Below, piece after piece: positions 35,796-41,654 of a stretch of 48,227 bases of DNA (the first letter of the stretch is position 1; every line of letters begins with the position of its first letter). The notes under the pieces were generated by a model, which was not told where the DNA came from, ran no database searches, and saw only the letters and a list, made by a program, of their open reading frames with translations. This stretch comes from Pseudomonadota bacterium. Its GTDB lineage: Bacteria; SZUA-182; DTGQ01. The stretch spans positions 1 through 48,227 of the forward strand of contig DAOURK010000015.1 in assembly GCA_030625085.1 (NCBI GenBank). Reading direction: 5' to 3'. Position numbers and translations under genes: made by a program.

Positions 35796-38195
35796 ATGAA
35801 AATTAGCTATAAGCTTATCCAAAAATATATTGACTGTTCTTTGAGCCCTGAAGCCTTAGCTGATAAATTGACTATGGCCGGCCTGGAGGTTTGTGCCATA
35901 GAAAAAACAGGGCTTGATCTCAGCTCATGTGTAGTAGGGCAAATCCTCGAAATTCAGCCCCACCCTGATGCAGATCGCCTCACCGTCTGTCAGGTAAATA
36001 TTGGTACCGAAGTCTTACCCATTGTCTGCGGCGCCCAAAATATGAAATTAAATGATAAGGTACCGGTTGCCTTGGTGAGTTGCCGTTTGCCTGGGGGCTT
36101 TCTTATCAAAAAATCAAAAATCCGCGGAGTATCCTCTCAAGGAATGATGTGTTCAGAAAAAGAACTTAATCTCAGTGAAGAAGCTTCCGGCTTGATGATT
36201 TTGCCTTCTGAGGCGCCTATTGGAAAAGAAATTTGCTCATACCTTGGGCTGGATGATGTTGTTTTAGAATTGGACCTTACCCCTAACCGGGGGGATTGCC
36301 TTTCCGTGCGAGGAATTGTGCGTGAAATTGCCACCTTAACCAATGAAACAACTAAAAAAATAACGATTGATATGCCACCTGAAGGGAATACAAACATTCA
36401 GGATATGATGTCTATTCGGGTCGATGCCCCTGATCTTTGCCCCCGGTATTCAGCGAGCATAATTTCAGACGTAACCATTGGCCCTTCTCCATTGTGGTTA
36501 GTTCAACAATTACAATCAATGGGCATTCGTTCAATTAATAATGTAGTTGATGTTACTAATTTTGTTATGATGGAATGGGGACAACCACTTCACGCCTTTG
36601 ATTATGATTTGATTCAGGAAAAAAGAATTATTGTCCGTCGGGCAAAAGAAAAAGAAAAAATCATTACCCTGGATGAGGTTGAACGACAATTAATTGCAGA
36701 AAATCTCGTTATTGTTGATACAAAACAAGCTATTGCCCTAGCAGGTGTTATGGGGGGAGCCAATACGGAAATTTCCAATCAGACTCATACTATTCTTTTA
36801 GAGAGTGCTTTTTTTGACCCCATCTCTATTCGCCGAACATCTGCCCTCTTTGGACTTCACAGTGAAGCCTCACATAGATTCGAGAGAGGGATTGATCCGG
36901 ACAGTGTAATTTTAGCCTTAAATCGAGCAACTCAGCTAATTGTAGAAGTTACTGGGGGGAAGCCGGCAAAAGGAATAATTGATATTTATCCGACTCCTTT
37001 TCAGCCCCAAAACATTACCTTACGCTTGCCTATGGTAAAAAAGGTCCTCGGTATCGAAATCCCTGAAAAAAAAATTTACCAAATTCTTCAAAACATGGAT
37101 TTCTCGATACAACGAATCGATGAACAAAAACTGGCCGTTCTTGCGCCTGTCTTTCGTTGGGATATAAAACGAGAAGTAGACCTTATCGAGGAGATAGCCA
37201 GAATCTATGGCTATGAAAATATTCCCGTGAGCTTGCCCACAGGTACTATTTCTGCTGAGAAAAAAACAAAGCTCAGAAATTTTGAGACAAAAATAAGAGA
37301 TATTTTAGTGGGACTGGGGTTTTCTGAAGCTATTAATTTTAGCTTTATCTCAAAAAAAATCATGGATGATCTTCCCCAGGTAAATGCTGAGTCCGAAGAG
37401 AGAATTTATTTAAAGAATCCCTTAACAGAAGACCAAAATGTTATGAGAAATTCTTTAATAGCCGGTCTATGTAAAAACATAGCCTTTAACCAAAACAGAC
37501 AGGCACAAAACATTCGCCTCTTTGAATTGGGCAGATGCTTCATCCCTTCTTCATCCGGTTCTCTACCTAAAGAAAAAATGATGTTAGGTGCTGTTATGCA
37601 AGGGTCAAGAGATCCTGCTTCCTGGCAGGGCAAGTCCGAATCGCTTACCTTTTTTGATGTAAAAGGAGTAGTAGAGGCCTTCATGTCTGCTTTGGGAATT
37701 TGTGACTATACTATCTGTTCGGATAATTACATATGGATGGGATCTTGCCACTGTTGCTCGATCAGGGTTGGAAATCAGCCAATAGGCTTTTTGGGGGAAA
37801 TAGATAAAAGTATTTTAGAATATTTTGATATTACTAAAAATATTTTTGGAATAGAGATTGAAATAGAATTTCTCAATATGCCCAAAAAAAGAACATTGAA
37901 ACCTATCCCTAAATATCCATCTATAACCAGAGATTTAGCCTTAATTATTCCCGAGGAGATACCCTATCAAGAGCTATATAAAAGCATTCGAGATATGAAT
38001 ATCAAAATTCTGCAAAAAATTTATCTCTTTGATGTTTATCGTGGAGATCAAGTCCCTTCAGGGGAAAAAAGTTTTGGACTGTCTTTAATCTATCAGTCTT
38101 TAGAAAAAACCTTAACAGATAAACAAGTCAATGCTATGCATAAAAAAATTATCAATCACCTAAAGCAAAAATTCCATGCATCATTGCGAGAATAA
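35796..38195 (+). CDS. pheT: Phenylalanine--tRNA ligase beta subunit
   Basis: PheT carries the editing site and binds tRNA-Phe. The protein (799 aa) has the EMAP-like tRNA-binding domain (about 39-150, with GQILEIQPHPDADRLTVC), the B3/B4 editing region (about 210-385), the B5 domain, the catalytic-like core (about 480-680), and the C-terminal anticodon-binding fold that starts at KYPSITRDLALII. The spacing and order are normal. It lies 65 bases after pheS and 15 bases before the zapB-like gene. Confidence 0.97.
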   Translation: MKISYKLIQKYIDCSLSPEALADKLTMAGLEVCAIEKTGLDLSSCVVGQILEIQPHPDADRLTVCQVNIGTEVLPIVCGAQNMKLNDKVPVALVSCRLPGGFLIKKSKIRGVSSQGMMCSEKELNLSEEASGLMILPSEAPIGKEICSYLGLDDVVLELDLTPNRGDCLSVRGIVREIATLTNETTKKITIDMPPEGNTNIQDMMSIRVDAPDLCPRYSASIISDVTIGPSPLWLVQQLQSMGIRSINNVVDVTNFVMMEWGQPLHAFDYDLIQEKRIIVRRAKEKEKIITLDEVERQLIAENLVIVDTKQAIALAGVMGGANTEISNQTHTILLESAFFDPISIRRTSALFGLHSEASHRFERGIDPDSVILALNRATQLIVEVTGGKPAKGIIDIYPTPFQPQNITLRLPMVKKVLGIEIPEKKIYQILQNMDFSIQRIDEQKLAVLAPVFRWDIKREVDLIEEIARIYGYENIPVSLPTGTISAEKKTKLRNFETKIRDILVGLGFSEAINFSFISKKIMDDLPQVNAESEERIYLKNPLTEDQNVMRNSLIAGLCKNIAFNQNRQAQNIRLFELGRCFIPSSSGSLPKEKMMLGAVMQGSRDPASWQGKSESLTFFDVKGVVEAFMSALGICDYTICSDNYIWMGSCHCCSIRVGNQPIGFLGEIDKSILEYFDITKNIFGIEIEIEFLNMPKKRTLKPIPKYPSITRDLALIIPEEIPYQELYKSIRDMNIKILQKIYLFDVYRGDQVPSGEKSFGLSLIYQSLEKTLTDKQVNAMHKKIINHLKQKFHASLRE

Positions 38196-38210: not shown

Positions 38211-38393
38211 ATGCTTTTTGAAAAAATTGATCAGATTAAAATTAAAATTAGACAAATAATAATAAATATGCAAAAATTAAAACAGGAGAACGAAAAATTA
38301 AAAGAGGAAAATGAACGATTTAAAACAGACAGAGAACGCCTTCAAAAAAGCATTAATGAAATGATCAAAGAATTAGAAATTTTTGAGGATTGA
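38211..38393 (+). CDS. zapB: ZapB-like coiled-coil cell-division protein
   Basis: This 60-aa protein is almost entirely a heptad coiled coil (residues 5-55, with repeated KLKEENERF-like heptads), with no Cys or Pro. ZapB proteins are short coiled coils that bind ZapA and bridge the Z ring to the nucleoid. Identity rests on shape and on position directly upstream of zapA, since the sequence itself is low-complexity. AAAGTGAG before the ATG is a plausible ribosome site. Confidence 0.7.
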   Translation: MLFEKIDQIKIKIRQIIINMQKLKQENEKLKEENERFKTDRERLQKSINEMIKELEIFED

Positions 38394-38430: not shown

Positions 38431-38736
38431 ATGCCGGAGTTAAACCAGACAACGAATATAGAAATTTTGGGGGAAGAATACAAGATTAAAAGTGATATTT
38501 CTCCTGAAGAAGTGCATAAACTAGCACATTATGTAAATATTAAAATAGGGAAAATCAGAAATAAAGCTAGGGACATACCCTTATTAAGAATGGTTGTTCT
38601 GGCTTGTTTAAATATAAGCGAAGAGTTGTTTGCAGTAAAAAAACAACTTGATGAAACCCAAAATTTAATGGAGGATGAAACTATAAAAATTCTTAAGCTG
38701 CTCGATGAATCATTTCGATTATCGGCGCATAAATAA
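38431..38736 (+). CDS. zapA: Cell division protein ZapA
   Basis: ZapA binds FtsZ and bundles protofilaments in the Z ring. The protein (101 aa) has the N-terminal FtsZ-binding beta-alpha domain (VEIL-like start, NIEILGEEYKIKSD, then EVHKLAHYVNIKI), followed by a long C-terminal helix (about 55-100) for tetramer formation with ILNISEELFAVKKQL-like heptads. It follows the zapB-like gene by 37 bases, and the 6S RNA region follows it. Confidence 0.88.
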   Translation: MPELNQTTNIEILGEEYKIKSDISPEEVHKLAHYVNIKIGKIRNKARDIPLLRMVVLACLNISEELFAVKKQLDETQNLMEDETIKILKLLDESFRLSAHK

Positions 38737-38909
38737 TAAGTAATGAATGTGGTCTTTAGGTAGTTTAAAACATTTTTGTCAGCCAATTTTGAGGGCAAGG
38801 AATAAAATTTTAAATAAAATAAAACCTTGTCGGGCTGTTTATAATAAGTTTTGTGTATTTTTTTGATAAAATTATTATATAGACAGTTATAGATAATAGT
38901 TTTCGTCGC

Positions 38910-38938
38910 TTGAAATTATATGATGAAAATGATATAGT
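38910..38938 (+). promoter_or_regulatory. Sigma70-type promoter of the 6S RNA
   Basis: TTGAAA (38910-38915) and TATAGT (38933-38938) are 17 bases apart, and the expected start is at 38944-38946, where the folded RNA begins. Confidence 0.7.
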
Positions 38939-38943
38939 ATTGT

Positions 38944-39132
38944 AGAACCCCCTGCTATACACGTGATGAATGGAGAGTTTTGAGCCAACATTAAAAATAG
39001 GGGAGTCTGGACTTTGGGTGCTGAAAATAAGCCTCAGTATTTTATTACAGAGGACATTTGAAGCACGCAGGAGGACACCCACCTGGTAACCCAGGTTCAA
39101 AATCTTTCATTGCACACGGTATAAAGCGGGGG
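38944..39132 (+). ncRNA. ssrS: 6S RNA
   Basis: 6S RNA mimics an open promoter and sequesters sigma70-RNA polymerase in stationary phase. The ends form the long closing stem: CCCCC (38948-38952) with GGGGG (39128-39132), GC, TATAC with GTATA, GTG with CAC, and AATG with CATT, in matched order with small internal loops. The 3' half contains the hairpin CCACCTGGTAACCCAGG, which resembles the 3' central-bubble hairpin of proteobacterial 6S RNAs. The length of about 185 nt is typical. It sits between zapA and a 5-formyl-THF cyclo-ligase gene, exactly as ssrS does in E. coli. Confidence 0.82.
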
Positions 39133-39475
39133 ATTCCCCAATCCAATTGAGTATACCTAAAAGACCCCATCATTATGTCTCCAATTAATTCGCAGTTTTG
39201 TAAATTATACTTTAACATGAGTTTTGAGAGGATTTTTAAAAAATCATTCATATACAATTTAATTACTACAAATTCAACAGGTTATACTGGATAAAATTTC
39301 TATTAGATACTTTTTACAAGACCGTCAGCTTCAAATCAGATCTCTGCTGAAGGTATTTTGAAATCAGGACGGGAGACAGGGATGACAAAAGGATCGGCTG
39401 GGAAGCCGCATAAAAAGATGAAAATTGCTATGCTATTAAATCAGTAAAAAAGATAGCGTAAAGAATAAGCGTTAA
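39133..39475. other. Spacer between 6S RNA and the cyclo-ligase gene
   Basis: No gene is seen. A single arm of the GACTTTTTACGA family lies at 39309-39327. The stretch around 39401-39440 (GAAGCCGCATAAAAAGATG) resembles 47318-47345. A 21-codon frame starting at 39382 is too short to call. Confidence 0.5.
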
Positions 39476-40057
39476 ATGAGCATGTATGAATCCAGGAAAA
39501 AAGATATCCGTAAAATGATATTATCACAAAGAAATAAAATCTCTTTAAAGGAACGCCAAAAAAAAAGTGGGGTAATCTTAAAGCGGTTGATCCAGACGTC
39601 CTATTTCTTAAAGGCATTTACCATGATGATTTATGTTTCTTTCTCCAGTGAGGTTATGACTGAAAAGCTCATAAATTATGCCTTAAGAAAGGAAAAAAAG
39701 ATTGCTGTTCCAACGGTTGACCTCGCTGGGCATCAATTGATACTGTCAGAGATTAAACACTATGAGGAGTTAGTTCCATCTACATATGGTATTAAAGAAC
39801 CTAAGCAATTACGAATCATAAATCCCGATCAGGTTGAACTATTCATTTTACCTGGACTTGCTTTCGATGAACAGGGAACAAGATTGGGGTATGGAGGAGG
39901 ATATTTTGATCGTTTATTAAGTACGAAAAATACGTCTCAAAATTTAATTGGCATTGCTTATGAATTACAAATTCAAAAAGAATTACCCTGTACACATCAT
40001 GACATTTCTGTGAATAAGGTAATCACAGAAAAAAAAGTAAGAACTTTTAACATTTGA
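39476..40057 (+). CDS. ygfA: 5-formyltetrahydrofolate cyclo-ligase
   Basis: This enzyme turns 5-formyl-THF into 5,10-methenyl-THF with ATP, recycling a storage folate. The protein (193 aa) has the N-terminal basic helix (KKDIRKMILSQRNK), YVSFSSEVMTEKLI, LILPGLAFDEQGTRLGYGGGYFDR-type ATP/folate site (with GYGGGYFDR) and a final strand. The E. coli homologue, ygfA, is co-transcribed with 6S RNA. The ATG has no clear ribosome site; two in-frame ATG codons lie two residues apart. rny starts 25 bases after the stop. Confidence 0.92.
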   Translation: MSMYESRKKDIRKMILSQRNKISLKERQKKSGVILKRLIQTSYFLKAFTMMIYVSFSSEVMTEKLINYALRKEKKIAVPTVDLAGHQLILSEIKHYEELVPSTYGIKEPKQLRIINPDQVELFILPGLAFDEQGTRLGYGGGYFDRLLSTKNTSQNLIGIAYELQIQKELPCTHHDISVNKVITEKKVRTFNI

Positions 40058-40082: not shown

Positions 40083-41654
40083 GTGAGCAAAATTAGCGGA
40101 GAGATATATATCATTTTGATGATTGTTATTGCTGTTATTTGCCTCTTAGTGGGTTATTTTGTTCGAAAAAAAATTTCTGAAAATAAATTAATAACCGCTG
40201 AGGCTATCGCCAAAAAAATTATTGTTGATGCTGAAAAAGAGGCAAATAATAAAAAACGCGAAGCTGTTTTAGAAGCCAAAGATAGATTATATCAGTCTAA
40301 GGCAGAGTTTGAAAGAGAAACAAGGGATAAGAAGATAGAATTACAAAAGCTCGAAAAGCGACTTACCCAGAAGGAAGAAAATGTCGAACGAAAAGTAGAT
40401 TTGCTGGATAGAAAAGAACAAGAAATTAACTCCAAGACCAAGGTAGTGGTTACAAAGGAAAGGGACTTAAACCAAAAGATCGCTGAATATGACGCTATAA
40501 TTCAGGAGCAAAAAAATCAGTTGCAGAAAATCTCTAATATGAGTTCGGAAGAAGCCAAAAATATGTTGATTGCTAAAATGGAGAATGAGGCTAAGCATGA
40601 GGCCGTGCGGTATATTAAAAAGATTGAAGAGGAAGCCAAAGAGACTGCCGGAAAAAAAGCTAAAGAGATAATTAGTTTAGCAATTCAAAGATATTCAGCA
40701 GATGAAGTAATGGAAGCAACTGTTTCTACTGTAGATCTGCCTAACAATGAGATGAAGGGGAGAATTATCGGCCGAGAAGGACGCAATATCCGAGCCCTGG
40801 AAATGGCCACCGGTGTTGACCTGATCATTGATGATACACCAGAGGCTGTTATCATCTCCGGTTATGATCCTATTCGAAGACAGGTTGCTAAAAAAGCCCT
40901 AGAAAAATTAATTATTGACGGACGAATTCATCCAACCCGAATTGAAGAAATTGTAACTAAATGCCAGAAAGAGATAGATAATTTAGTCCGAGAAGAGGGA
41001 GAAAAAACAACCTTTGAGGTGGGAGTTCATAACCTTCATCAGGAAGAAATAAAACTTATTGGGCGTTTACGCTATAGGACTAGTTATGGGCAAAATGTTT
41101 TACAACATTCTAAAGAAGTTGCTTTTTTGGCAGGTATAATGGCAGCAGAACTCGGAGTCGATGAACAATTGGCCAAGAGGGCGGGGCTATTACATGATAT
41201 TGGTAAGGCAGTAGATCATGAGATGGAAGGTTCTCATCCTCAAATAGGTGCGGAGTTAGCCAAGAAATATAACGAATCATCCTTGATCATTAATGCTATT
41301 GCCGCTCATCACGAAGATGAGGAACCAAAGGGAATTATTGCTGTTTTAATCCAGGCAGCCGATACTTTATCGGCAGCTCGACCAGGCGCACGAAAAGAAA
41401 GTCTGGAAAATTACGTTAAGAGATTGGGAAATTTGGAAAAAATCGGAAATTCCTTTAAAGGAGTAGAAAGCTCATACGCCATTCAAGCGGGAAGGGAGAT
41501 TCGCATTATTATTGAACCTGAAAAACTTACAGAAAATAATATGGGAACTTTGGCCAAAGATATTGCGAAAAAAATTGAGGAAGAACTGGAATATCCAGGA
41601 CAGATTAAAGTTACTCTAATCCGAGAATCCAGAACCATAGAATATGCCAAATAA
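40083..41654 (+). CDS. rny: Ribonuclease Y
   Basis: RNase Y is a membrane-bound endoribonuclease that starts mRNA decay. The protein (523 aa) begins with one membrane helix (about 7-27), then a long charged coiled coil (about 30-200), a KH domain (about 210-280, with GRIIGREGRNIRALE), and an HD domain (about 330-430, with HSKEVAFLAG and LLHDIGKAVDHE). The start is GTG with AAGGGG directly upstream. RNase Y with RNase R in this window gives both endo- and exonuclease steps. The partner RicT is coded at 21492. Confidence 0.96.
   Translation: MSKISGEIYIILMIVIAVICLLVGYFVRKKISENKLITAEAIAKKIIVDAEKEANNKKREAVLEAKDRLYQSKAEFERETRDKKIELQKLEKRLTQKEENVERKVDLLDRKEQEINSKTKVVVTKERDLNQKIAEYDAIIQEQKNQLQKISNMSSEEAKNMLIAKMENEAKHEAVRYIKKIEEEAKETAGKKAKEIISLAIQRYSADEVMEATVSTVDLPNNEMKGRIIGREGRNIRALEMATGVDLIIDDTPEAVIISGYDPIRRQVAKKALEKLIIDGRIHPTRIEEIVTKCQKEIDNLVREEGEKTTFEVGVHNLHQEEIKLIGRLRYRTSYGQNVLQHSKEVAFLAGIMAAELGVDEQLAKRAGLLHDIGKAVDHEMEGSHPQIGAELAKKYNESSLIINAIAAHHEDEEPKGIIAVLIQAADTLSAARPGARKESLENYVKRLGNLEKIGNSFKGVESSYAIQAGREIRIIIEPEKLTENNMGTLAKDIAKKIEEELEYPGQIKVTLIRESRTIEYAK

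Follow-up and report, generated by a model that had tools for sequence, protein, structure and literature searches.

A 6S RNA Gene in the zapA to Cyclo-Ligase Interval of a Thinly Sampled Bacterial Phylum

Introduction

What is encoded between zapA and the gene for 5-formyltetrahydrofolate cyclo-ligase (ygfA/fau) in a bacterium from a seldom-sequenced phylum? The question is raised by a 48,227-nucleotide stretch of DNA (hereafter, the window; GenBank assembly GCA_030625085.1, contig DAOURK010000015.1, GTDB lineage Bacteria; SZUA-182; DTGQ01), for which an earlier note had proposed a 6S RNA in this interval by likeness to ssrS of Escherichia coli. 6S RNA is a small RNA that, on the current view, imitates an open promoter and so retains RNA polymerase in resting cells. 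The analysis described here leads us to regard positions 38946-39136 as almost certainly a 6S RNA (ssrS) gene, whose product would act by open-promoter mimicry and would release the polymerase upon synthesis of a short product RNA (pRNA). Direct support comes from the family match, predicted structure, covariation, gene neighbourhood, a promoter-like site and the presence of primary-sigma-type proteins; transcription, polymerase binding, the pRNA start and release would be expected by analogy with the known 6S family. Well supported as it is, the locus is ordinary: both the gene and its place are of familiar kinds, and it adds a 6S RNA to a phylum represented by nine genomes. The order zapA-6S-cyclo-ligase-RNase Y can assist annotation and the search for weak 6S genes, and changes no concept.

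Identification of the RNA

In a search of the whole window, the Rfam covariance model for 6S RNA (RF00013) matches positions 38946-39136 of the forward strand with 96.2 bits (E 3.8e-18), more than twice the family's cut-off (gathering score) of 46.4 bits. The match is full length, covering model positions 1-187 of 187, and spans 191 nt. The claim of a 6S RNA at 38944-39132 is therefore borne out by the covariance model and its location stands, whereas the proposed extent, including a length of 185 nt, gives way to that of the model match. Across the assembly (4.94 Mb in 247 contigs) this is the single 6S match at E ≤ 0.001; a second copy was sought at that threshold and none was found.

A second model, built from the 6S RNAs of the phylum, also yields a 28-bit match on the minus strand of the window that overlaps the 6S locus. 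Similar minus-strand matches occur at the 6S loci of two relatives (40.4 bits in L032 and 20.5 bits in L031). Such matches are expected from a rod with near-complementary strands and, as they overlap strong plus-strand matches, they are not taken as genes. The model gives two more matches elsewhere in its scan of the window (7.4 and 7.3 bits), which we attribute to chance.

Flanking Genes and the Leader Alternative

Immediately upstream of the RNA lies zapA (38431-38736; PF05164, E 9.5e-17), itself preceded by pheT (35796-38195), which carries five Pfam domains of the phenylalanyl-tRNA synthetase beta chain, and by a small coiled-coil-like ORF of 60 residues (38211-38393). Downstream are the cyclo-ligase gene (39476-40057; PF01812, E 5.2e-40) and then rny, encoding RNase Y (40083-41654; PF12072, E 3e-62, with KH and HD domains). 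All six features lie on the forward strand, in the order pheT, small ORF, zapA, 6S, cyclo-ligase and RNase Y. The ssrS-like setting that had been proposed for the RNA is thereby confirmed, since its flanks are recognized by Pfam and E. coli K-12 has the corresponding order zapA-ssrS-fau. The two genomes part company after the cyclo-ligase gene, which is followed by RNase Y in the window and by sibC and serA in E. coli. The E. coli 6S RNA (ssrS, NC_000913 3055983-3056165) belongs to the same Rfam family and scores 139.8 bits, compared with the 96.2 bits of the window's RNA.

Given that the structured element ends 339 nt upstream of the cyclo-ligase gene on the same strand, and that no terminator-like site is present on the forward strand between the two (up to 39500), it might be read as part of the cyclo-ligase mRNA, serving there as a structured leader or cis-regulatory element, and not as a free-standing RNA. 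We consider this very improbable. A lax Rfam search of 38700-39520, with matches admitted up to E 5, returned no family besides 6S, so that no known riboswitch is visible before the cyclo-ligase gene. Moreover, among 34 6S places located in a survey of 60 genomes (see below), 20 lack a cyclo-ligase gene in the 3 kb that follow on their contig, some of them lying at contig ends, and ssrS at the equivalent place in E. coli is annotated as a non-coding RNA. The 339-nt spacer between 6S and the cyclo-ligase gene shows little conservation among the four members of the family. A small terminator-like hairpin, as read on the minus strand, was observed upstream of the cyclo-ligase gene at 39395-39408 and has no counterpart when the intervals of the other three family members are aligned.

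Gene Neighbourhood Among Phylum Relatives

A 6S RNA was found in eight of the nine genomes of the phylum, and all eight score above the RF00013 cut-off; the suggestion that 6S RNAs are often missed in this group is not sustained for the covariance model, which detects one in all but one of the genomes. At these loci, zapA is upstream in all eight, with the cyclo-ligase gene and RNase Y each downstream in seven. The eighth locus (G007) is on a contig that ends 192 bases past the 6S RNA. Likewise, pheT is found upstream of zapA in seven of the eight loci and is not seen in the short G007 stretch. In the ninth genome (G008, 88% complete), zapA, the cyclo-ligase gene and the start of RNase Y are together on one contig, and neither the Rfam model nor the phylum-built model finds a 6S RNA in the gap between zapA and the cyclo-ligase gene; 6S may have been lost or displaced from this interval. 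The G008 interval (L118, C211, 330-1060) consists of other sequence with repeat-like stretches.

The neighbourhood is also familiar from published work. One study states that the order zapA-6S-ygfA is reported in other taxa, especially Gammaproteobacteria (PMC9788540), and another describes ygfA and 6S as adjoining genes in gammaproteobacteria and alphaproteobacteria, as well as in certain beta- and deltaproteobacteria or Firmicutes (PMC9130861). A third has a table row for the 6S RNA of Aquifex aeolicus that names pheT (PMC4227106). In a limited literature search, no paper was found in which RNase Y is named beside 6S, which does not show that the point is unpublished.

These reports bear on another reading, namely that the RNA is 6S-like and binds RNA polymerase in another way, as does Ms1, which binds the core enzyme and is described as structurally related to 6S (PMC9130861). 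This has only a very slight chance of being correct, as 38946-39136 matches the 6S model over its whole length and sits in the zapA/cyclo-ligase neighbourhood that PMC9788540 and PMC9130861 report for 6S itself.

The small ORF between pheT and zapA is weakly similar to ZapB (E 3.1e-5; 24.8 bits, below the Pfam cut-off of 31.5), and other coiled-coil families score nearly as high. Similar stretches are present at the same place in three other members of the family (tblastn, 29-31% identity).

Predicted Structure and Covariation

The minimum-energy fold of 38944-39132 has a free energy of -71.6 kcal/mol, as compared with a mean of -44.8 kcal/mol (sd 3.84) for 200 dinucleotide shuffles, none of which folds as low (z -6.98). 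The paired motifs named in the earlier note were all located, namely CCCCC (38948) with GGGGG (39128), TATAC (38956) with GTATA (39119), GTG (38963) with CAC (39115), and AATG (38969) with CATT (39108), as was its 3' hairpin, CCACCTGGTAACCCAGG, at 39079-39095. The paired motifs make up a closing stem whose description as fully matched was slightly generous, small bulges being present in the minimum-energy fold. The 5' strand of this stem occupies 38947-38975: Rfam pairs 38947-38964 with 39116-39134, and the minimum-energy fold extends the stem to 38975/39105. The 5' side of the central bubble follows at 38987-39000, where Rfam predicts no pair, and the apical arm of the rod spans 39001-39080, with 39001-39036 paired to 39049-39080 in the Rfam structure.

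Conservation of this architecture was assessed in a MAFFT alignment, made from sequence only, of the eight 6S RNAs of the phylum (out of 35 matches seen), onto which Rfam's own structure was mapped through the window sequence. Altogether, 83.6% of the cells are paired, relative to 39-51% when the structure is slid along the alignment, and 22 of the 51 Rfam pairs have changed on both sides, relative to a shuffled mean of 11.1; none of 500 shuffles reaches 22. The 191-nt RNA is thus predicted to form a rod in the expected size range (about 180-200 nt), with a central bubble and with covariation that maintains the fold, although all eight aligned sequences come from searches with the Rfam model, a procedure that favours sequences fitting that model's structure. 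The common gene neighbourhood is support independent of that selection. Within the apical arm, the two longer helices are paired in 100% and 90.3% of cells and the two short ones in 87.5% and 90.6%. The Rfam helix adjoining the bubble is imperfect in the relatives, with 83.8% of cells paired and five of its ten pairs failing in two to four of the eight sequences. A structure computed by RNAalifold from the same alignment, and hence derived from these very sequences, has 92.7% of cells paired and shows changes of both partners in 25 of its 53 pairs.

Promoter-Like Site

A sigma-70-type promoter-like site, TTGAAA-N17-TATAGT, is present on the forward strand at 38910-38938 (TTGAAA at 38910-38915 and TATAGT at 38933-38938), with a TG before the -10 element. 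As had been claimed, it stands at a suitable distance from the RNA, ending 7 nt upstream, and judged by sequence it would place the putative RNA start near 38945-38946. A match of 10 of 12 bases at a distance of 5-8 nt arises in 71 of 20,000 shuffles of the upstream region; such sites are not enriched in the region as a whole, where two were found and 4.1 are expected in shuffles. The site is kept in all four members of the family, one of which has TATATT as its -10 element. In the alignment of these four genomes, the last 48 columns before the RNA include 29 that are invariant, as against 25 in the preceding 180. The same scoring, at the same distance, gave no convincing promoter in four relatives outside the family (best matches of 6, 7, 9 and 6 of 12).

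The notion that the locus is a decayed 6S gene that has lost its expression is scarcely credible, as both the structure and the promoter-like block before it seem to be under constraint. All nine genomes of the phylum encode proteins with Sigma70 region 1.2 (PF00140), and the host genome has three such matches, one of them in an open frame of 592 codons.

Putative pRNA Template and Release Switch

A motif on the template side of the bubble, GAGCC, is common to the E. coli and window 6S RNAs. When the two are aligned through it, C38989 of the window falls opposite U44 of the E. coli RNA, which we take to be the pRNA start in that molecule. By this alignment, the putative pRNA template would comprise 38977-38989, with the pRNA beginning opposite C38989 and the template being read towards 38977. 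Since the position of the E. coli uridine is occupied by a cytidine in the window, a pRNA initiated there would begin with G.

On the opposite side of the bubble, a 3' hairpin (ACCTGG/CCAGGT), the one noted earlier as CCACCTGGTAACCCAGG, is predicted at 39081-39096 on the forward strand. In the eight aligned sequences, pairing holds in 95.8% of its cells, and four cells have changed on both sides, compared with 1.0 in shuffles, with none of 500 reaching four. By pairs, two of six have changed on both sides, a count matched by 100 of 500 shuffles, and four further pair types occur, which 481 of 500 shuffles attain. Because shuffles often equal these counts of pairs and pair types, the covariation evidence for the hairpin is modest.

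In the minimum-energy fold of the free RNA, this hairpin has only three pairs, the outer bases on its 3' side being taken up by pairing with the GAGCC-bearing helix. When 9, 12, 14, 16 or 18 template bases were barred from pairing in silico, it assumed six pairs every time. According to PMC8876501, a 3' bubble hairpin of nine pairs forms in E. coli 6S upon use of the template, whereas B. subtilis 6S-1 has a small one that is already present in the free RNA and does not lengthen. The same paper describes a role of the hairpin in setting the length of the pRNA in both species. As predicted from folding energies, the window's RNA would share features with both: a small preformed hairpin of three pairs, as in B. 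subtilis, and its lengthening upon template occupation, as in E. coli, albeit to six pairs rather than nine. Overall, the hairpin looks like a short release switch of the E. coli type.

The mechanism that we propose is that of 6S RNAs generally, which are abundant, most of all in stationary phase, and bind the sigma-70 holoenzyme. The RNA would be transcribed from its own sigma-70 promoter and would fold into a rod whose central bubble resembles an open promoter to the housekeeping RNA polymerase. When nucleotides are scarce, RNA polymerase would be retained by the 6S RNA; upon their return, it would use the 5' side of the bubble as the template for a short pRNA. Synthesis of the pRNA would open the adjoining helix and allow the 3'-side hairpin to lengthen, whereupon RNA polymerase would be released.

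Gene Order Beyond the Phylum

The survey mentioned above comprised 60 genomes (the source genome, its eight phylum relatives and 51 taken from other parts of the domain) and yielded 34 6S matches, 27 of them above the cut-off. An additional Rfam match in G019, at 62.4 bits and above the cut-off, was probably lost earlier to the stricter filters of the survey, so that at least 35 of the 60 genomes have a 6S match. Among the 26 survey matches outside the phylum, zapA is upstream in 11, and the cyclo-ligase gene and RNase Y are within 3 kb downstream in 7 and 11, respectively; 13 have at least one of these three neighbours and 13 have none.

A further set of 80 loci was fetched by their RNase Y. 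The phylum-built model, applied to 21 of these and to E. coli, found 6S in six of the 21 and failed to report the E. coli 6S RNA at E ≤ 1, from which its reach is evidently short. The Rfam model, applied to nine of the loci and to E. coli, found 6S in E. coli and in six of the nine, with none in L035, L050 and L109. Two of these six loci (L031 and L032) are from phylum members. The other four, by their locus titles, are from Syntrophobacteraceae (L033), Deltaproteobacteria (L036), Desulfobacteraceae (L037) and Nitrospiraceae (L068), and they resemble the window in carrying 6S upstream of RNase Y, in these loci at a distance of no more than about 400 nt (RF00013, 77.3-114 bits). Unlike the window, they have no zapA or cyclo-ligase gene visible between the two, and in L033, L036 and L037 the genes upstream of 6S were read by eye as the ATP synthase beta and epsilon subunits. 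Searches of the 80 loci for zapA, pheT and the cyclo-ligase gene were positive in L031 and L032 only, using models that were grown from the window's proteins and are thus too narrow to speak for the other 78.

We also raise a speculative suggestion, one that we think more likely wrong than right: the array pheT-zapA-6S-cyclo-ligase-RNase Y may date from early in bacterial evolution, with zapA-6S-cyclo-ligase as the only part retained in E. coli, and it might serve to locate 6S RNAs that have diverged beyond the reach of the Rfam model. The same tentative suggestion extends to the release switch of the phylum, which may be intermediate between those of E. coli and B. subtilis in having a small preformed bubble hairpin that lengthens.

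The use of gene order as a guide was tried on 20 stretches taken from downstream of zapA or from the interval separating it from the following genes, and it was one of these that gave the additional G019 match. Neither model found a 6S RNA in 15 of these, making gene order only a modest help in recovering missed 6S genes. Two more (G009 and G057) contain weak matches already present in the survey, and a partial minus-strand match to the phylum-built model in L134 (26 bits, rough E 9.7e-7) was taken as chance. Finally, in G059 (L129, 326-538), a candidate 6S RNA reported by the phylum-built model at 32.8 bits, and not by Rfam, lies between zapA and RNase Y.
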